Made by a program: the position numbers and the translations under genes. The notes beneath the pieces were generated by a model. The model made no database searches. It was not told where the DNA came from and saw nothing but the letters and a program-made list of their open reading frames with translations. From contig ONHG01000003.1 in NCBI GenBank assembly GCA_900317585.1, forward strand, positions 50,308-114,307: a stretch of DNA of 64,000 nucleotides. The letters are read 5' to 3'. The DNA is from an uncultured Lachnospiraceae bacterium. Its GTDB lineage: Bacteria > Bacillota > Clostridia > Lachnospirales > Lachnospiraceae. Of this stretch, positions 32,445-57,870 are shown piece by piece. The stretch's first letter is position 1, and each line of letters begins with the position of its first letter.

Positions 32445-33308
32445 CTAGCTGCACAGGGCTTTAATATCATTCACCAGATTATTAAGCTCCATGTCTATGC
32501 CACAGTCAAAAACTCCAAAGCTTGTCTCTATCTGGCAATCACTCGCCTCAAGATTTGCATCATTAACCACCTCAATATCAATATCATTTCCTATACGCTC
32601 TTTTATCTCATCAAGGTGCGAAAGCATAAACTTATAATTCGTGTGGGCTACATGAATTCTGAATTCCCTGCCCACTTCGACCTTTGATATTGTATTTTTG
32701 ACCAGATGAAGCAGTATCTCCTTGCTCTTTCCAAACTGGATATGGAACACCTTGTCAAATACTCTGATAATTGCCTCAACAAGGTCTGACTCAAGCTCGT
32801 CTGAATATTTTGTATATTCATCCTCCAGGGATGCCTTTTTCTCAGCAAGCTCTCTTTCAATATCAGCTTTTTTTTTCTCAAATTCGTTTTGCTGCTCTTC
32901 AAGTCCATCGGCATAGCCTTTTGACTTATTGTCGGCATATAATATCTGAGCACGCTGTTTCGCCTCAGCCATAAGCCTGTCTGCCTCAGCCTTTGCGTCA
33001 TTTATAATTTTGTCAGCCTCAAGCCTCGCGTTTTCAAGCAGCTTTTCTTTTTCAATATCAGCTTTCTGTTCGATGACCACATCTGCATTTAAGCCTTCAC
33101 TAAACTCTTCATTAGTCTGCCCTACGTCAGTCATCGGATCAGCTGTCTTATTTTCTGCTTCCGTTTCTGCCGCACCGGCATCCATTCTGGTACCAACATC
33201 AGACTTAACAGACTCAAGTATCAGCTTTCTGAGTGCTGAATTATTATTTATTATTCTGACCTTTTTCTGCTCATCAGTCACATAATACTGCTTTAATATA
33301 TTAGACAA
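32445..33308 (-). CDS. fliH: Flagellar assembly protein FliH
   Basis: 287 residues. Acidic/glutamate-rich middle with coiled coil (ENARLEADKIINDAKAEADR, ELAEKKASLEDEYTKYSDEL) and a C-terminal domain (VEVGREFRIHVAHTNYKFML, FDCGIDMELNNLVNDIKAL) like the V-type peripheral-stalk fold of FliH, the FliI regulator. Start appears to be a TTG at 33308, inside the end of fliG (8-nt overlap), with GGAGGTGAT upstream; translational coupling is likely. Confidence 0.88.
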   Translation of the reverse strand: MSNILKQYYVTDEQKKVRIINNNSALRKLILESVKSDVGTRMDAGAAETEAENKTADPMTDVGQTNEEFSEGLNADVVIEQKADIEKEKLLENARLEADKIINDAKAEADRLMAEAKQRAQILYADNKSKGYADGLEEQQNEFEKKKADIERELAEKKASLEDEYTKYSDELESDLVEAIIRVFDKVFHIQFGKSKEILLHLVKNTISKVEVGREFRIHVAHTNYKFMLSHLDEIKERIGNDIDIEVVNDANLEASDCQIETSFGVFDCGIDMELNNLVNDIKALCS

Positions 33309-34305
33309 CTATATCATCACCTCCACCTCTGGAAATAACGATATCTCCCGAATCCTCAAGTCTGCGGATAACAGCAACTATCTTCTGCTGTGCCTCCTCA
33401 ACATCCTTCATACGCACCGGACCCATAAAATCCATATCCTCTTTGATCATGGCCGCAAGACGTTTTGAAAGGTTCCTGAAAATAACATTTTGTACTTCCT
33501 CTGTGGAGCTCTTAAGTGCAAGCTCAAGATCAGCGTTCTCAACATCTCGCAATACTCTCTGGATAGATCTGTCATCAAGCAGCAGAATATCCTCGAATAC
33601 AAACATCTTCTTTCTGATTTCATCTGCAAGCTCAGGCTCTTCAATCTCGAGAGACTCCATAATACGCTTCTCTGTAGAGCGGTCTACGCTGTTTAATATA
33701 TTAACAATTGAATCGATACCACCAACAATTGTGTAATCCTGGTTGACAAGTGATGAAAGCTTTCTTTCGAGCACTCTCTCAACCTCCTTGATAACATCAG
33801 GTGAAGTTCTATCCATCTGCGCAATACGTCTTGCAACATCAGCCTGCTTCTCAGGCGGTAACGCACCGAGAATCATAGCTGCCTGACCAGATGAAAGATA
33901 TGACAGAATCATGGCAATTGTCTGTGGATGCTCATCCTGTATAAAGTTAAGCAACTGGCTTGGCTCTGTCTTTCTGACAAATTCAAACGGACGAACCTGT
34001 AGCGATGCAGTAAGCTTTGAAATAACACCCTGTGCTTTTTCCTCTCCAAGGGCTTTTTCCAAAAGCTCCTTTGCATAGCCAATACCGCCCTCAGCAATGT
34101 ACTGCTGGGCAAGACATACCTGATAAAATTCCTCCAAAACCTCATCTTTATCGGACGGAGATACACTTCTTGTATTTGCAATCTCCAAAGTCAGGCTCTC
34201 AATCTCATCCTCTTTAAGATGCTGAAAAATGGATGAAGCCTTCTCAGGTCCTAATGTAATCAACAAAATAGCAGCTTTTTGTATGCCACTGTAATTATCA
34301 CTCAT
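33301..34305 (-). CDS. fliG: Flagellar motor switch protein FliG
   Basis: 334 residues, usual length. Blocks IQKAAILLITLGPEKASSIF, DEHPQTIAMILSYLSSGQAA, FVFEDILLLDDRSIQRVLRD and GPVRMKDVEEAQQKIV are characteristic. The C-terminal charged residues (EDI, DDRSIQRVLRD) form the torque face towards MotA. Start ATG with GGAG, 6 nt after fliF. Ends GGGDDIVV. Confidence 0.97.
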   Translation of the reverse strand: MSDNYSGIQKAAILLITLGPEKASSIFQHLKEDEIESLTLEIANTRSVSPSDKDEVLEEFYQVCLAQQYIAEGGIGYAKELLEKALGEEKAQGVISKLTASLQVRPFEFVRKTEPSQLLNFIQDEHPQTIAMILSYLSSGQAAMILGALPPEKQADVARRIAQMDRTSPDVIKEVERVLERKLSSLVNQDYTIVGGIDSIVNILNSVDRSTEKRIMESLEIEEPELADEIRKKMFVFEDILLLDDRSIQRVLRDVENADLELALKSSTEEVQNVIFRNLSKRLAAMIKEDMDFMGPVRMKDVEEAQQKIVAVIRRLEDSGDIVISRGGGDDIVV

Positions 34306-50832: not shown

Positions 50833-51981
50833 TCAATCCTCATATTCAAGTTCCATATTAAGCTCGGCAATTTTATTTAAAATCCGGTTGATTTCATTAA
50901 TCTTGTCTCCAACCTGTTCTCTGTGTGACAATATTTCCCTTCTAAGCCCGGTAACAGCTTCAATATTATACTTCATGCGGCCTCTGAGCTTTTGTCTTCT
51001 GCCTATAAGCTCATGCTTCAGCTCTACCATCTCGCGGTGATCTACAATAGCATTTGTATAATTAAGCCATACTCTTGCATCATAAAAATCATTGGTCTGA
51101 AGCACCCGAAGCAGCTTTTTACTGTTATATTCCAAATCCTCATTTGTCTGTCTGAAACGCGCTTTTTCCTTTACTGCAAGCAGATACTGCTCATATATAT
51201 ATATCAGTTCCTTTGAGTTTTTTATGTGATATTTCTCATAAGTGTAATCTATCGTATTTTTCACATTCACATATTTAATCTTGACCCTGTTTTCGAGTAC
51301 AATAGCCCTGTTCTTGTTTACATTACAGCTTCGTATCTGTCTCTGCTGTTCCTGATACGAATAAAACACGAATGTTCCGGCAAAAGCAGCTATAATTGCG
51401 CCGACAAATGTAAAAACTGTTGTATCAACATCAAGCTGAAATCGAAGAGTCATACAAAGTACAACAACTGTCACAAAAAACGCAATAACAAAAACGGCAT
51501 AAATTCTAACCTTCTTTTGCGCTGCCACAGCCTCATCCTTTTCAATGTCAAGCTCCATCTTTTGACTCTCAAGGAATCTCAAATCCCTGTTTATGGCATC
51601 AAGATTTCTCTCGTTTTTTTCAAGTCTTTTTATTGCCCTGGGTATCTCAGCCTCAAGCTCCTGCATCTGCACATACTGACTGTCTGATATTTTGTTTTCG
51701 GTTTTTAGAAATTCCGACCTTTTTCTTTCAAGCTGTGCTATGCTTGCGGCGGCATCGCACATGAGCTTTTTGTCCGGATCCTTCATATTTTCCATACGCT
51801 CTATATCCGTAAGATAATTTGTAACCTGCGCATACTCTTCCCTGGCGGCCTCGAATTCTCTTGCCGCATCTATCATCTGTTCACAGGCATCAACCACCTG
51901 AAACTCTGCTGATTCCTGTTTTATTATTTTTTGCGTATTTTCCTCTTGCTGATTTGTTTTTTTTCGATGTTTAAATAACAT
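50833..51981 (-). CDS. Coiled-coil membrane protein of unknown function (DUF5717/5716 operon)
   Basis: 382 residues. Long coiled coils at ~20-150 (QMQELEAEIPRAIKRLEKNE) and ~220-375, separated by two membrane helices (~160-182, IYAVFVIAFFVTVVVLCMTL, and ~190-210, VFTFVGAIIAAFAGTFVFY) with a very short loop, so both coils face the cytoplasm. No known domain is recognised. Start ATG with GAGG 12 nt upstream, 11 nt inside the preceding TPR gene; last gene of the four-gene operon. It may be the membrane anchor for the other three products (inference from topology and position). Confidence 0.7.
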   Translation of the reverse strand: MLFKHRKKTNQQEENTQKIIKQESAEFQVVDACEQMIDAAREFEAAREEYAQVTNYLTDIERMENMKDPDKKLMCDAAASIAQLERKRSEFLKTENKISDSQYVQMQELEAEIPRAIKRLEKNERNLDAINRDLRFLESQKMELDIEKDEAVAAQKKVRIYAVFVIAFFVTVVVLCMTLRFQLDVDTTVFTFVGAIIAAFAGTFVFYSYQEQQRQIRSCNVNKNRAIVLENRVKIKYVNVKNTIDYTYEKYHIKNSKELIYIYEQYLLAVKEKARFRQTNEDLEYNSKKLLRVLQTNDFYDARVWLNYTNAIVDHREMVELKHELIGRRQKLRGRMKYNIEAVTGLRREILSHREQVGDKINEINRILNKIAELNMELEYED

Positions 51982-52783
51982 GTGAACGATATTCCTCTTT
52001 ATATTTTAAAATAATGTCTGCCTTTTCTCTAGCTGACATATTTTTAATCTCTGCAGCTTTGGCATCTATCAATGAGCTCTCACTGCCCGAATAAAATCCC
52101 TTTATCACATCCTCTAATTTAACAAGCTCCGATTCATCTACCTGGTAATCCTCTACAACCGCATTAAATTTATCATCATTACCCATACATTTGTATGAAA
52201 TAAGACATGACCACAACGATTTTCTGTTTTTGTTGTACTGATAAGCTTTTCTGAAAAAAACCGCTGCTGTTTCGAACAGAAATAATCTTGCATATGCACA
52301 GGCCATGTTGTTATATACGTTGCCGTAAAGTGCTGTATCAGCAGTTTTGGCTTCCTCCGATGACAAAAGCTTCCTATATTCAATAATGGAATTTTGATAC
52401 TTTCCCGCTTCCATAAGACTGTCTGCCCTAAGCTTAGCGCATTCAAATGAACTTTTCCCCTCAAGCTCTCTTAATATATCGTGAACCGATGATATCTGCG
52501 TGGCACTGCAATAGCCTGAATATTCAAGTATTTCAGTGACAAATGCTGACAAACGGCCATTGGTTGATATAATCATTTTAAGATGCTCCGCAAGCTTTTT
52601 AAGGTTTGCCTGATCTTCTATCCACGCACAAAGCTCCTGATTCATGAAGCTTTTATCCAGCAGATATACGTTATTTATAATATAATAATCAAGCTCTTCT
52701 ATCGAATATATATTTATCGACACACCCTCCAGATAAAAGGGCATGGCTGCAATTGGTCCATTGCAAAGTAATAGCTCTCCCAT
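51971..52783 (-). CDS. TPR-like helical protein of unknown function (DUF5717/5716 operon)
   Basis: 270 residues, all-helical in the second half, with two or three TPR-like repeats (YQNSIIEYRKLLSSEEAKTA, YGNVYNNMACAYARLFLFET, AAVFFRKAYQYNKNRKSLWS). The N-terminal ~100 residues (MGELLLCNGPIAAMPFYLEG, NIYSIEELDYYIINNVYLLD) are a separate domain seen in this operon type. No enzyme motif. ATG with GGAGGG upstream, 8 nt after the Hsp70-like gene; ends inside the next gene. Likely a protein-protein adaptor. Confidence 0.72.
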   Translation of the reverse strand: MGELLLCNGPIAAMPFYLEGVSINIYSIEELDYYIINNVYLLDKSFMNQELCAWIEDQANLKKLAEHLKMIISTNGRLSAFVTEILEYSGYCSATQISSVHDILRELEGKSSFECAKLRADSLMEAGKYQNSIIEYRKLLSSEEAKTADTALYGNVYNNMACAYARLFLFETAAVFFRKAYQYNKNRKSLWSCLISYKCMGNDDKFNAVVEDYQVDESELVKLEDVIKGFYSGSESSLIDAKAAEIKNMSAREKADIILKYKEEYRSHVI

Positions 52784-52791
52784 ATGCCCTC

Positions 52792-54030
52792 CTACATAGT
52801 CATTTCATAATGCCACACTTTACCGGAGCTTCTGAAGATTTCTCCAAAGCCCAGGTCTTTAATCTCAATATCAATCTTATCATCCGACACAGGTGTCGCT
52901 GTAATTCTTATTCGCGTAGCCCTGTCAGGTCTCACAGGCATATCTGTCAGCTCAAGCGTCTCTATCTTTGCCTCCCTGCTTTTTGGAAGCTGCTTCCAGA
53001 AATCCACCTCATATGAGTCTCCAATAATAACCTCACACTCTCCTTTAGCCTCAAACCAGTTTGTCCCTGCACTGATTAAATTGTAAAAAGAAAGATTTCC
53101 TCTATCCTTTACCTTAAGGCTCAAATTGAATTTCATCTCATTCTCACCCATATAGACAAAAGGCCAACTGTCTTCATTATCTCTTGTACGCGCAGCATAA
53201 CAGGCCCCCTTAGAAAAAAGGTTGTTTCCCATAAAAACACGGCGTCCGCTGCACAATATAGTTAACGACTGCTTCATCCATGACTGTGAAAATCCATCTC
53301 CAACCAGATACACCGTTGAGACAGTATGGTTTTTTAATGTATCTTTTATAATTCCCGTAAAATAGCTGTCCCAGTCGTTCTCTTTAATTGTATCATACAC
53401 TCTCTCGTCAATTGAAATCACCTGCGGTGTTGTCCTTGTATCACGCTTCAAACCCATACAGCTCAGATTATCCCTATCCTTTTCAAAAAGAAAAACATCA
53501 TGAAGCCACAGAGATTTTTCCTGATTCAGGGTATAATAATAAAAGCTCTCCTTATGGTCTATAATCATAAGCTGCTTAGAATTAAGCCCCAGCTTTGGCA
53601 GCAGACCGACAAACAGCTTCACGTTTTCTTTGGTAAGTTGCTTAAGACATATGGCCAGTCTGTCACACACTGAGGGATTACCCATCTTGGAAGGTAAAGC
53701 AATAAGCTTTTTAATAAATAAAGCAAGCAGGTCCTCCGCCATAAAGACTTCATCTTCAATAACGATTTTTTCCTTAGACATAGCTCTCTTTAGCAGATTA
53801 TCAATGCATACCAGCTCAGCATTTTTTGACATTTTGCGGGCTTCATCACCATAATACCATATTCCCATGTTCTTTCTTCTGGCAAGCACCAAAGGAATCT
53901 GATACACCATTGAACCCGCAATTGTGCTGGCCGTCTCCGGCTCTTTCATATTAAATTGAAGAAAGCTTACCATAGCATATTTATCATTGATATCAATGCC
54001 TATATAGTAAGAATTGCTTTTTCTCTCCAT
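52792..54030 (-). CDS. DUF5716 protein with Hsp70/actin-type (ASKHA) fold features
   Basis: 412 residues. The N-terminus YYIGIDINDKYAMVSFLQF resembles the phosphate-1 strand-turn of Hsp70/actin ATPases, followed by IPLVLARRKNMGIWYYGDEA (compare the Hsp70 TPS-V-F...GxxA segment). Near residue 240-280, STVYLVGDGFSQSWMKQSL and FSKGACYAA match the adenosine-binding motif and following helix of Hsp70. The phosphate-2 region (MIIDHKESFYYYTL) lacks the usual GGGT, so ATP hydrolysis may be weak or lost. A C-terminal beta domain (~300-412) replaces the Hsp70 substrate domain. Directly after the DUF5717 gene (16-nt gap). ATG with GAGG upstream. Confidence 0.75.
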   Translation of the reverse strand: MERKSNSYYIGIDINDKYAMVSFLQFNMKEPETASTIAGSMVYQIPLVLARRKNMGIWYYGDEARKMSKNAELVCIDNLLKRAMSKEKIVIEDEVFMAEDLLALFIKKLIALPSKMGNPSVCDRLAICLKQLTKENVKLFVGLLPKLGLNSKQLMIIDHKESFYYYTLNQEKSLWLHDVFLFEKDRDNLSCMGLKRDTRTTPQVISIDERVYDTIKENDWDSYFTGIIKDTLKNHTVSTVYLVGDGFSQSWMKQSLTILCSGRRVFMGNNLFSKGACYAARTRDNEDSWPFVYMGENEMKFNLSLKVKDRGNLSFYNLISAGTNWFEAKGECEVIIGDSYEVDFWKQLPKSREAKIETLELTDMPVRPDRATRIRITATPVSDDKIDIEIKDLGFGEIFRSSGKVWHYEMTM

Positions 54031-54046: not shown

Positions 54047-57000
54047 TTACATCAGTGTAAATATCTGCTTTGTCAGGCTGTCTTTTTTACGGTATTCACT
54101 GACATTATTGCAAAATGTTTCATCATCAAGCAGTGTATTTGATATTATTATCTCATTTGTAAGATTATATCTGCTGTGGTCAGCTCCACCATATATGTTG
54201 TTGCAGATGAGTCTGCTGCTCTCTTTAATCAATACCCTTCCGTCACTCTCCTGTGTAATATAATACCTGATCATCTCGCCAAAGAACATGACAAAGGTTT
54301 TGACATAAATTCCACCATAAACAGGCTGCAGCTCCTCCTCTGTAAAATCATCCCCATCCTCATCGCGACTGTAATGCAGTACCACACGGCAATTCTCCTC
54401 AGTAGCCATATATTGAAGAAAAACTTTGTCATACAGATAATATTTCTGCACCAATCTGTAGTCAAGCCTTGCAAAAAAATCAAAATACATATTGTGGCAA
54501 ATATAGTTGTCAAGCAAAGCATCCTCTATCTCATATTCTACGGAGGATATTTGACTTTTTACTGACATATGCTTTAAAAGTGCGAGCTTACACGCATCAT
54601 TAAGAGTGCGTCTGCATTCATATCTGTTTTCAATAATATCAAAAATAAAATCACAATCTGAAATATTTGAAATCATATAGTTATTTGCCAGCACTGAAAT
54701 ATACGCCAGCACAAGCATATCATTTCCACCCTTGTCATAATACGACATAAATATTTCGGATATTCCGGTCAAATCCCTGTCTGTATATACAGCCTGCTCA
54801 ATAATCCTTTCATCAAGCCTGACTGATGATACAGAAAACCGTTTTGCCGCATTCCACAAATCTATCATCATATCCGTAGGACCGGAATAGTTATCGCAAA
54901 GATATTTAAGCATCGTATCATTATATTTTCCTGTCATAAATGCCGATGCCGAAAGACTGAGCATAAACTCGTCTTCCTCCTGGCTTGCAGCAAGCGCATT
55001 CTCGCAAAGCGTAACCTTTGAGACTGCAGACATCTGGTCGATTCCATAATCCTGCACAATATCATATGCTTTTTCAAACATATGGTTTTCAACAAGCATT
55101 TCAATCATATATCTTCTCGTTGCAGCAGACAAAAGCTCGCAATCAATGCTCTGCAGAAGCTGCTTTATATCTTTCTCTTTATCATGAATACGATAATATT
55201 TAAGAATCGCAGCAATCATTTTATCCCTGTAGGCGTCAGAAAATTCTTTATTGCAAATTAACTGTTTAAAATATATACTGTCACTTTCCTTAAGTCCTGA
55301 ATAATCCGTAACATTTCTGAGGTGAAATGCTATATATGGAAGCTCGTTTGGTGCATGCTCAAGACACTTATTTAGATACTTTTCCGGATTCATAAGTCTT
55401 TGCATACGATATGAGATGCTGTCCACATACCGGTACCCCTTTTCATCCTCAAACAAGATCACATATCGGTCTGAAAACAACTGAAAATATGCTGTCTGGT
55501 CTATAACCGGCACTATCTGCGGATTCTCCATCTGACTCTGGTAAATAACAGCTCTTACAATATGTCTGTCAAACACTATCAGCTTATATGAAAATATAAT
55601 ATCTGATAAAGAAACAGCTAACTCATCATTGATAAAGCCAAGCTCAAGCATATCGTCATAAAGCACTGCAAGATTATCATCCATATGTGACTGTTTTGCC
55701 TGTTCCATTGCAAAGCGTGTCATTGTACTGCGATATTTATGATATATTTCCGGTTTTTTTGTTTTGGCTGCAATTATATTATTATAAAGCACTGCAAGCT
55801 TACGGTATGGCAGATTATTATCGTACTGAAAATACATCTGCACAATATCAGGAACCGAGGAAATCTGTCTATCCTCCATTGTGATAAGAAATGACTCATA
55901 TAACCCTGTTATTCTCAGCTTAAGCTCTATTGCCTTTTCAAACCATTCATGATATCTGACATCATTCTGCTGTCCCTTAATTAAATAACTGCATATAATA
56001 CCAACGTATTCATCAGACGGACAGACTTCATAGGCTGCTGTCAGTAAATCAAACACTTTTTTTTCAAAACCCGATGAGAGCTCCACCACCTCGAATATCT
56101 GCTCTGCAAGTTCTTTACTTAATGCCTTGTTCTTTACTGCCCATCCTAAAATCCGAAGCTCAAATGTGCCAAGCTCCTTTAACAGATACGGATCCTTCCA
56201 CATCAGATAATATGCCTCTACATACATAAACGGTGATGAGCACCCATTCAGTATCCAATATCTTATGTCCTTTAGCTTACCTGCATCATTATCAAAATAC
56301 TGCTCTCTCAAAAACAGAAGAACCCAGAAAAGAAGACTGCTATCAGGATTTTCATAGAAAATAAGCTCAATCTCATGCGTCATCCTGTCAACATATGACG
56401 GTTCCCGCTCCAGCAGAGTCTTTAAGTACAGATAATATCCCCATACAGGAGCTTTTTTATCACTAAATTCTCTCTTAAAATCATTAAGAATCCATTCTGC
56501 CTCCTGGCGCTGACGGTTTATAATATACGCCTGTGCCTTCATCAATTCATAAAGAGGTTCCTTTGGACAAAGCGCATGAAGATGCTTAAGCTCACCTATT
56601 GTCTCATTTGCCCACAAGCCGGTGACAATTCTCTTTAATCTGTAGCTTTGGTACAGTTGTGTAATGCCAACCACGCTCTTTTTAATATCATTTCTTATGC
56701 TTTTATTTTTGCTTTTATTTTCATTTGCATGCGCTGCAACCTCAATTGTAAATGTCTGATGTACACACTCAATAAAAATACGTCCAAAATTATTGCCTGC
56801 GTGCATACGCTCATTATCAATTATATAACTATAGACATAGGTTTTTCCAATAAAATCATCAAAGGTCAATGCCTGTCTAGACAGCTTAATAAACTCACAG
56901 TCAGTACGGACATGAATCTCCGCATATCCCCAGTTCATGCGCGTAATCTCAAAGCTGCCACTTTGATTTTCAGCTGAAGCCGCAAACTCCTCCTTTGTTT

Positions 57001-57631
57001 TGTCAACCTTTATTGAGACCGGCTTTTTCTTATGAACGCCGACCAAAAACTCTTCCATATTACGTGAAGACGGCTTAGCAGCCATAATCCCACGATAAAT
57101 CATGTTCTCAACAACCATATCTTCCGATATAATATTAAGAAAATTTCTGTTATAGAAAAGATGATATGCCTCTGTCCAGTTATTTTGGGCAAGCTTTGTA
57201 AAATCATCAAGATTTTTAATTACTCCCACAGAGGTTTCTGCATAAAGTTTTGTGATTCTTGCGCAAAAAGAAAGACTGTACTCAATCTGATTACATACAA
57301 TCACAAAGCTGCCCTCGCAGGCATCGCCCTCTACGAGACCCTTACTGTTAAATTGATAACGAATCCTGACTTTCTCGCCCTCGAAATGCGGATTCAGACA
57401 TTCCATCCTCGGATTAGTCGAATAAACTATACCACGGATTTTTATCTGATTCGTACTTTCTATTACAAAGCTTCCCGCTTCGCTTCTTCCCTCAATGACC
57501 GAAAGGTCTATTGTCTCCTCTGAAAACGCCAAAATCGGTTTCGTGCCATTAAATCTGCCGGCAGCTATCTGCCCTATACGTGCTCGCACAATTGTTACCC
57601 CGTTTACGTTAAATGTTGATTTTTTATACAC
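54047..57631 (-). CDS. DUF5717 giant protein of unknown function
   Basis: 1194 residues. Residues ~15-310 look like two or more beta-sandwich modules (KPILAFSEETIDLSVIEG, GSFEITRMNWGYAEIHVRTD). From ~330 onward the protein is an alpha-helical solenoid resembling tetratricopeptide-type pairs (ELMKAQAYIINRQRQEAEWI, VWGYYLYLKTLLEREPSY), and the last ~120 residues turn back to beta. No signal peptide or membrane helix. Drawn start is GTG at 57631 with no ribosome site; a second GTG at 57589 has GGGG eight bases upstream and fits better with the TATAAT box at 57634. First gene of the four-gene operon. Confidence 0.75.
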   Translation of the reverse strand: MYKKSTFNVNGVTIVRARIGQIAAGRFNGTKPILAFSEETIDLSVIEGRSEAGSFVIESTNQIKIRGIVYSTNPRMECLNPHFEGEKVRIRYQFNSKGLVEGDACEGSFVIVCNQIEYSLSFCARITKLYAETSVGVIKNLDDFTKLAQNNWTEAYHLFYNRNFLNIISEDMVVENMIYRGIMAAKPSSRNMEEFLVGVHKKKPVSIKVDKTKEEFAASAENQSGSFEITRMNWGYAEIHVRTDCEFIKLSRQALTFDDFIGKTYVYSYIIDNERMHAGNNFGRIFIECVHQTFTIEVAAHANENKSKNKSIRNDIKKSVVGITQLYQSYRLKRIVTGLWANETIGELKHLHALCPKEPLYELMKAQAYIINRQRQEAEWILNDFKREFSDKKAPVWGYYLYLKTLLEREPSYVDRMTHEIELIFYENPDSSLLFWVLLFLREQYFDNDAGKLKDIRYWILNGCSSPFMYVEAYYLMWKDPYLLKELGTFELRILGWAVKNKALSKELAEQIFEVVELSSGFEKKVFDLLTAAYEVCPSDEYVGIICSYLIKGQQNDVRYHEWFEKAIELKLRITGLYESFLITMEDRQISSVPDIVQMYFQYDNNLPYRKLAVLYNNIIAAKTKKPEIYHKYRSTMTRFAMEQAKQSHMDDNLAVLYDDMLELGFINDELAVSLSDIIFSYKLIVFDRHIVRAVIYQSQMENPQIVPVIDQTAYFQLFSDRYVILFEDEKGYRYVDSISYRMQRLMNPEKYLNKCLEHAPNELPYIAFHLRNVTDYSGLKESDSIYFKQLICNKEFSDAYRDKMIAAILKYYRIHDKEKDIKQLLQSIDCELLSAATRRYMIEMLVENHMFEKAYDIVQDYGIDQMSAVSKVTLCENALAASQEEDEFMLSLSASAFMTGKYNDTMLKYLCDNYSGPTDMMIDLWNAAKRFSVSSVRLDERIIEQAVYTDRDLTGISEIFMSYYDKGGNDMLVLAYISVLANNYMISNISDCDFIFDIIENRYECRRTLNDACKLALLKHMSVKSQISSVEYEIEDALLDNYICHNMYFDFFARLDYRLVQKYYLYDKVFLQYMATEENCRVVLHYSRDEDGDDFTEEELQPVYGGIYVKTFVMFFGEMIRYYITQESDGRVLIKESSRLICNNIYGGADHSRYNLTNEIIISNTLLDDETFCNNVSEYRKKDSLTKQIFTLM

Positions 57632-57639: not shown

Positions 57640-57650
57640 TAATGATATGA

Positions 57651-57848
57651 GGGTCAAAAGGTATTTTGCCCCTCATTTATGATTAATCAGATTACTACAT
57701 GCTACGCATTCCCGTAATCTGACTACACCTCGAAATCCGCTAATTTCCTGCGTCCACGCAGCAAATTGCTACTTTCTCGGTGTAGTGCGGGTCACTAAGG
57801 TATACATCGAATTGCATGCAAGCATGCATCGATGATACCTTTTGACCC
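57651..57848. repeat. 198-bp element with 13-bp terminal inverted repeats and internal hairpins
   Basis: Ends are an exact 13-bp inverted repeat, GGGTCAAAAGGTA (57651-57663) and TACCTTTTGACCC (57836-57848). Inside are at least four more complementary pairs: CAGATTAC/GTAATCTG (57688-57695, 57714-57721), ACTACACC/GGTGTAGT (57722-57729, 57779-57786), CTGCG/CGCAG (57748-57752, 57757-57761, extended by flanking AATTT/AAATT), and TGCATGC/GCATGCA within 57803-57837. No open reading frame of note. It fits a miniature inverted-repeat element or a structured RNA; fills the divergent gap between two genes. Confidence 0.75.
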
Positions 57849-57870
57849 TTTAATCTGTAAATTATATACG
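57842..57870 (+). promoter_or_regulatory. Possible promoter for the aminotransferase, -35 supplied by the repeat arm
   Basis: TTGACC (57842-57847), 17-nt spacer, TATACG (57865-57870); TATATA at 57863 is an alternative with 15 nt. The -35 lies inside the right arm of the 198-bp element. 47 nt before the ATG at 57917. Confidence 0.45.

Follow-up and report, generated by a model that had tools for sequence, protein, structure and literature searches.

The DUF5717/DUF5716 operon

The 64,000-nucleotide stretch of an uncultured Lachnospiraceae genome analysed here (the window) carries an operon of four closely packed minus-strand open reading frames (ORFs), separated in the window's ORF list by gaps of 16, 8 and -11 nt: a large DUF5717 protein, a DUF5716 protein, a TPR protein and a membrane protein, here called MEM, whose start overlaps the stop of the TPR gene by 11 nt (Table 1). 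This confirms the four tightly spaced genes described in an earlier, sequence-only reading of the same DNA. In Pfam, the first ORF matches DUF5717_N (E 7.9e-279, 927.7 bits) and the C-terminal DUF5717 domain (E 3.8e-88, 296 bits; curated cut-offs 25 bits), and the second matches DUF5716_C (E 2.9e-107, 358.5 bits against a cut-off of 34.7). The TPR matches in the third protein lie under the curated cut-offs, and MEM has no credible Pfam match. Hydrophobic stretches are found in MEM (residues 160-178 and 188-206) and in none of the other three; in the alignment of its relatives, long charged helical regions flank them.

Table 1. Positions of the operon genes and of the adjacent repeat in the window
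Feature	Position	Strand	Description
DUF5717 protein	54047..57631	-	1194 aa as called; two predicted beta-sandwich domains, long alpha-solenoid and C-terminal beta domain; putative scaffold
DUF5716 protein	52792..54030	-	412 aa; predicted pseudo-Hsp70 with SBD-beta and a degenerate nucleotide domain; lobe IIB and lid absent
TPR protein	51971..52783	-	270 aa; putative adaptor
MEM membrane protein	50833..51981	-	382 aa; two predicted transmembrane helices between long charged helical stretches
Repeat like a miniature inverted-repeat transposable element (MITE)	57645..57855 (at least)		between operon and divergent hisC-like gene; inverted arms reach 57633 and 57866

The called start of DUF5717 is the GTG at 57631, and aligned relatives start about 14 residues further in; the GTG at 57589 (giving about 1180 aa) is probably the start instead, with the reservation that neither GTG has a clear ribosome-binding site. 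DUF5716, TPR and MEM follow next in order after a full-length, fused DUF5717 in 48 of 55 named loci, and because so many loci keep the arrangement, the four-gene order is not due to chance. The seven deviating loci comprise two without the membrane protein (L153, L169), two that end after DUF5716 (L186, L193), two in which an opposite-strand ORF is called at the place of the TPR gene (L166, L167) and one that belongs to a larger type of locus described below (L201).

The AlphaFold model of DUF5717 (43 sequences; predicted local distance difference test, pLDDT, 86.9; predicted TM-score, pTM, 0.59) has beta-sandwiches at residues ~34-127 and 205-302, a helical solenoid that starts at 308 and is broken by a small beta domain, and, towards the C-terminus, a further beta domain at ~1069-1142. 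Its best Foldseek matches are ciliary central apparatus proteins and CEP192 SPD-2, with TPR-type solenoids next; from the number of aligned columns, the likeness is presumably to the N-terminal sandwiches. We read these matches, whose TM-scores are low, as likeness of predicted fold and not as homology. Model and matches together support the giant solenoid scaffold with beta-sandwiches that had been proposed from the sequence.

Fold and active site of DUF5716

The AlphaFold model of DUF5716 (62 sequences; pLDDT 92.2, pTM 0.87) consists of an Hsp70 nucleotide domain followed by the beta part of the substrate-binding domain (SBD-beta). Foldseek gives DnaK (7kru, E 7.9e-21) as the best match, with the Hsp110 Sse1 (2qxl) and structures of the ribosome-associated complex (RAC; 6sr6, 7x3k) among the neighbours, and the family profile matches the DnaK chain 4rtf (E 5.6e-16). 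Simpler searches were silent: phmmer with the single sequence found no Hsp70 in the PDB, and PF00012 run against the bacterium's own genome left the DUF5716 protein unlisted even at E 10. By fold, profile homology and tree (see below), DUF5716 belongs to the Hsp70 superfamily, and the ASKHA/Hsp70 fold claimed by the sequence-only reading is borne out.

The active site has largely gone. Its columns were located by motif in an alignment containing the genome's own DnaK, 34 DUF5716 proteins and 13 proteins of a related group, HspB; the residue numbers used (K70, E171, D194, T199, D201 and others) are those of E. coli DnaK. An HspD that carried the label DUF5716 (row L086) was excluded from the residue counts and from the Hsp70 tree. 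None of the 34 DUF5716 sequences has the expected residue in the K70, E171, P172 or T11 column; one retains T199 and two retain D201. Of the 13 HspB sequences, none retains K70, P172, T199 or D201 and one retains E171, while HspA, HspC and HspD (13, 13 and 12 sequences) keep all the listed sites. The catalytic set of an active Hsp70 chaperone (K70, E171, D194, GGGT, D201) is thus not what DUF5716 carries. The Hsp70 motifs quoted earlier from the window protein do fall in the correct alignment columns, with most of the active-site residues within them replaced, and of the two options then offered, an ATPase or a pseudo-ATPase, the losses support the latter.

Two further parts of a working Hsp70 are missing. 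GrpE grips lobe IIB in the DnaK-GrpE complex, and the segment corresponding to this lobe is 52-71 residues long in DUF5716 (median 56); HspB has 128-145 (median 143) and the DnaK of the window's genome 136. The SBD-alpha lid is absent as well: a median of 140 residues follows the GAA motif, and the model stops after the SBD-beta strands. The columns conserved in at least 30 of the 34 sequences lie largely beside the GAA motif and in SBD-beta. Sequence, predicted fold and tree together show DUF5716 as an Hsp70 that is, on this evidence, enzymatically dead.

The larger locus and the distribution of the genes

Outside the window's family, which was taken as Lachnospiraceae from the named loci (Anaerocolumna, Butyrivibrio, Roseburia), DUF5717 stands in a longer run of genes: DUF5717, usually as two genes, HspA (~559 aa), a GrpE fusion (~560-645 aa and ending in the GrpE domain; 279 aa in genome G092), HspB (~470-565 aa), HspC (~546 aa), HspD (~690-735 aa, with a VWA domain at its end) and the TPR protein. 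Pfam HSP70, GrpE, VWA and TPR were found across the ten larger-locus proteins scanned; HspB of G135 matches PF00012 (E 5.1e-18), and HspB of G092 has no PF00012 match. The whole run is present in 13 of 26 larger loci, in some with intervening extra ORFs. For several of these, the GrpE gene was assigned from where it lies and how long it is, and each of those genomes has two or more GrpE matches. In the remaining 13, the run is truncated at a contig end, interrupted, dispersed or damaged; at the locus of G092, HspD is split and the TPR protein is short. Among the carriers with a name are Defluviitalea phaphyphila and metagenome-assembled genomes (MAGs) labelled Candidatus Epulonipiscium. HspA and HspC stop shortly past SBD-beta and HspD continues there with VWA, so that all three, judged by eye from their sequences, appear to lack the usual lid. 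GrpE goes with DUF5717: among relatives from other families, 25 of the 27 that carry DUF5717 have at least two GrpE matches (exceptions G094 and G104), compared with 2 of the 28 that do not (G122, G140); in the window's family, 5 of 90 genomes have them. DUF5717 itself is two genes (~400 and 900 aa) in most other families of the order, and its fused or split state changes at least five times on the DUF5717 tree. The existence of this multi-Hsp70/GrpE form in other families overturns the earlier suggestion of a Lachnospiraceae-specific device.

In the Hsp70 tree, which took in 12 of the 34 DUF5716 rows and came with a long-branch warning, HspB and DUF5716 form one clade (100/100), with the HspB of G092 directly beside DUF5716 (100/100). 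In the DUF5717 tree, G092, a carrier of the larger locus, stands beside the family (100/100; the family itself 93/86), followed by G123, G134 and L201. A tree of the family only pairs the outgroup G092 with G063, which (as L071) is also the first family branch in the DUF5717 tree, so that the two agree when rooted on G092. Given a midpoint root, and because G092, G123, G134 and L201 are placed next to the family, loss on the family stem is the simplest reading of these sequences. Gene order and tree show DUF5716, as far as sequence comparison reaches, to descend from HspB, an already degenerate member of the larger locus.

DUF5717_N was found in 112 of 145 relatives (90 of which belong to the family); none of 14 control genomes has it, and a sample of 348 genomes from the phylum gave 4 carriers, each of them in the window's family. 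DUF5716_C was found in 111 of the relatives and in 10 of 243 genomes of the class, these ten again all in the family, the TPR protein in 110 relatives and MEM in 108; the MEM profile and those for flagella can miss divergent homologues. Presence and absence were tallied on the 101 relatives that are at least 90% complete, with no limit on contamination (98 genomes if contamination is at most 5%); rows absent from the profile listings were filled by elimination and checked against the tallies, and a weak flagellin match in G139 (E 7.5e-4) was counted as absent. On this set, DUF5717 and DUF5716 are both present in 73 genomes, one alone in 2 (G134, G140) and neither in 26, G134 having an unlabelled 433-aa gene at the place of HspB. 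Within the family, the pair is present in 53 of 53 such genomes, including 11 without flagellin and 9 without SpoIVA, and DUF5717 in 85 of the 90 family genomes of any completeness; the reduced operon is also carried by a MAG record under the label Muribaculaceae (L202). Four DUF5717 carriers have no TPR match: G020, G025 and G094, with G134 added by elimination. A single 713-aa frame in G086 (L066:12246-14387) encodes both DUF5716 and the TPR protein, and this natural fusion suggests direct contact between the two. The counts support the co-conservation of DUF5717, DUF5716 and the TPR protein.

The same cannot be said of MEM, which the sequence-only reading had made the membrane anchor of the system while naming independent occurrence of the genes as evidence that would count against it: MEM is found without DUF5717 in 15 of the 101 genomes, and DUF5717 without MEM in 14. 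MEM and flagellin are both present in 74 genomes and both absent from 20; MEM alone is found in one (G116) and flagellin alone in six (G074, G076, G105, G108, G127, G132), and FliG gives identical numbers. Shared ancestry was corrected for with a tree of DUF5717 proteins from 34 of the 90 family members and an outgroup, on which absence of MEM amounts to five changes and absence of flagella to six; four of the five MEM-less lineages contain flagellin-less genomes only, and the fifth contains five flagellin-less and two flagellated ones (G074, G076), one weak join standing behind the count of losses (G064 with G083, 89/53). Away from the operon, a valS-like gene (named by eye) lies next to MEM or one small ORF off in 13 of 20 loci, namely 8 of 12 from genomes without DUF5717 and 5 of 8 from genomes with DUF5717 elsewhere; in the larger locus, MEM follows the TPR gene in G095, G116 and G123 and a 195-aa ORF in G092. 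MEM is not an obligate partner and largely tracks flagella.

Some details of MEM and its loci stand by themselves. G074 and G076, family members with flagellin and FliG and without MEM, have best FliG E-values (1.5e-38 and 1.9e-38) that are weaker than those of nearly all other flagellated members, and perhaps have a different flagellar gene set. MEM is extended in G035 and G048 (967 and 749 aa; L069:14144-17047, L070:3664-5913) by a long C-terminal tail of partly low complexity. G095 has a TPR protein (L103:7060-8475) that carries N-terminal cysteine pairs and a membrane segment and is flanked by folC-like and spoIIA-like genes (named by eye); its cluster turns up again at 9 of the 20 loci around MEM. 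Two readings of MEM were considered and rejected: as for a SLATT 2TM effector, the SLATT profile weakly matches 1 of 32 MEM members in Pfam and 2 of 32 in NCBIfam, the window protein scoring 16.8 bits against a cut-off of 41, and descent from GrpE is contradicted by the coexistence of both in the loci of G092, G095, G116 and G123.

The core of the operon behaves differently with respect to flagella. Since DUF5717 is kept in 11 of 11 flagellin-less family genomes that are at least 90% complete, the DUF5717-DUF5716 core is not a motility device in the family; outside it, 20 of 21 DUF5717 genomes have flagellin, and there may be an old link between DUF5717 and flagella. A link to sporulation was also rejected, as neither DUF5717 nor MEM is associated with SpoIVA in the 101 genomes (DUF5717 and SpoIVA: both in 62, DUF5717 only in 12, SpoIVA only in 22, neither in 5).

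The surroundings give no functional hint, either in the window (a hisC-like gene, gltX, UvrD) or in relatives (valS-, folC- and spoIIA-like genes, named by eye). Flagellar genes lie elsewhere in the window, e.g., FliG at 33301-34305. The MITE-like element beside the operon is one of five copies at least 96% identical over ~210 bases, among 42 matches in total in the 2.57-Mb genome, and, lying upstream, may carry or displace the promoter.

Proposed working and comparison with known systems

The best overall explanation, to which we assign a probability of about 0.6, is that the complex is a non-catalytic, client-binding scaffold whose Hsp70 subunit would descend from HspB and work by analogy with Ssz1. 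On the stem of the Lachnospiraceae, the catalytic Hsp70s and GrpE would have left the locus, and DUF5717, DUF5716 and the TPR protein stayed; the loss of lobe IIB, which is plain in the alignment, may be linked to the loss of GrpE. The beta-sandwiches and solenoid of DUF5717 would form the platform and the TPR protein would dock on DUF5716, giving a stable three-protein complex in which DUF5716 is a constitutive binding module, a role proposed because its conserved columns lie in SBD-beta and beside the GAA motif. A client or partner may then dock on the conserved face of SBD-beta, constitutively and without the need for ATP, as in Ssz1. Such a core would serve a housekeeping process independent of sporulation or motility, with MEM a co-transcribed accessory relevant chiefly in flagellated cells: probably a motility-related membrane factor, either bound by the complex or merely co-expressed. 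More tentatively, and at somewhat less than even odds, the order would have an undescribed dedicated chaperone machine, with four lidless Hsp70s (one a pseudo-Hsp70, one ending in VWA), a private GrpE fusion and a beta-sandwich/solenoid scaffold, which in Lachnospiraceae has been stripped to a non-catalytic core, becoming a universal structural complex that recruits the flagellum-linked MEM in motile species.

Several points weigh against this explanation. DUF5716 retains D8 in 28 of 34 sequences, D194 in 14, and the first glycine of both the adenosine motif and the GAA motif in all 34, and may bind nucleotide weakly. The loss of E171 is less sure than the others because a conserved glutamate (E161, in 31 of 34) lies two columns on, which could reflect a shift of the alignment, and some rows may be misplaced by one position at K70. 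SBD-beta may be retained purely as structure. The genome, 87% complete, yields one DnaK with PF00012, together with MreB and two weak sub-cut-off matches, and with an ordinary DnaK in the cell an indirect chaperone role is possible. The clade of HspB and DUF5716, both degenerate and on long branches, could partly be an effect of attraction, although gene order and the intermediate G092 agree with it; and the direction of the change, loss and not gain, depends on gene trees with a midpoint root.

In one rival account, DUF5716 is not a passive scaffold but a co-chaperone acting on the ordinary DnaK in the manner of Hsp110 or RAC, consistent with Sse1 and two RAC structures being structural neighbours and with the single DnaK of the genome. 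We give this little credence: most of the phosphate motifs and lobe IIB have gone from DUF5716, nucleotide-exchange Hsp110s need their own nucleotide, and Pfam finds no J domain in any of the four proteins. That all four proteins are one complex fixed to the membrane by MEM, as first proposed, would fit the 11-nt overlap, the order kept in 48 of 55 named loci and the place of MEM in the larger loci of G095, G116, G123 and, after the 195-aa ORF, G092, but we consider it unlikely in view of the 15 genomes with MEM and no DUF5717 and the 14 with DUF5717 and no MEM, the valS-like neighbour at 8 of 12 loci in genomes without DUF5717, and the tracking of flagella. Another account makes the operon a chaperone for motility or a platform for flagellar assembly, tied to the flagellum through MEM. 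Concordance of MEM and flagellin in all but 7 of 101 genomes, the four purely flagellin-less lineages among five without MEM, flagellin in 20 of 21 DUF5717 genomes outside the family and the flagellar genes of the window speak for this; yet all 11 flagellin-less family genomes keep both DUF5717 and DUF5716, and 18 flagellated relatives outside the family do without DUF5717, which makes it a distinctly unlikely account.

Highly improbable is an NTP-dependent conflict (defence) system, although the gene content bears a thematic likeness to GAP1-N2 systems with HSP70 and GrpE (PMC7159879). Neither the four window proteins nor ten proteins from relatives' loci have a GTPase among their Pfam matches, PADLOC matches 0 of the 4 window proteins (of four locus proteins from relatives, one matches the candidate model PDC-M61B, E 1.7e-6, in its Hsp70 part), the pair is universal in the 53 family genomes at least 90% complete, and there is no plasmid match. 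Four DUF5716 hits did come from a phage collection; the three that were opened look bacterial. These three, L212, L213 and L214 (MT835719, MT835486, MT835988), are GenBank phage records marked UNVERIFIED; L212 has gltX- and UvrD-like genes as in the window and a further Hsp70-like gene of 562 aa, and in L213 and L214 the genes for DUF5717, TPR and MEM stand among neighbours resembling those at chromosomal loci. As gene content and neighbours match chromosomal loci, we take all three to be bacterial DNA, not phage.

Lachnospiraceae are major gut bacteria, and a gene pair present in every sufficiently complete genome of the window's family has no paper that we could find. Searches for DUF5716, DUF5717 or their Pfam accessions, in a literature coverage that leaves aside most subscription papers and all bioRxiv preprints, gave one irrelevant paper (PMC8115291); within the literature searched, the operon appears to be undescribed. 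On the gene trees, it would be a case of an ATP-driven Hsp70 locus that lost its motors, its exchange factor and the very lobe which that factor grips, while the dead subunit stayed, and it adds MEM as a candidate flagellum-linked membrane protein.

Among known families, the window proteins are members of Pfam DUF5716_C, DUF5717_N and DUF5717, for which Pfam gives no function, and DUF5716 shares fold and profile homology with DnaK/Hsp70 (PF00012), from which it differs in having neither catalytic residues nor lid. The CnuD Hsp70 homologues of CoCoNuT, with degenerate nucleotide- and substrate-binding domains, are thought to be very poor ATP hydrolysers (PMC11090510); they are tied to the McrB GTPase and nucleases, none of which is at the DUF5716 locus. 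GAP1-N2 conflict systems comprise HSP70, GrpE, a second Hsp70 without peptide-binding domain and TPR-fused FNIII proteins (Kaur et al. 2020, PMC7159879). They share with the larger locus HSP70, GrpE, a second, reduced Hsp70, beta-sandwich/TPR proteins and VWA; unlike them, the DUF5717/DUF5716 locus has no GTPase found, is a chromosomal core locus of one order and shows no variable effector. Ssz1, an atypical Hsp70 of the yeast RAC, comes nearest. It is a subunit without lid and without ATP hydrolysis that sits stably within a complex (PMC7083937). Like DUF5716, it combines an Hsp70 domain with an SBD-beta that has no alpha lid, in keeping with the RAC structures among the Foldseek matches; it differs in binding ATP and having a J-protein partner, for which the Pfam matches of the four operon proteins offer no J domain, while in DUF5716 lobe IIB and most of the phosphate-motif residues are gone and the neighbours are a solenoid and a TPR protein. 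We regard Ssz1 as the closest working analogy for DUF5716, an analogy of action rather than of membership.

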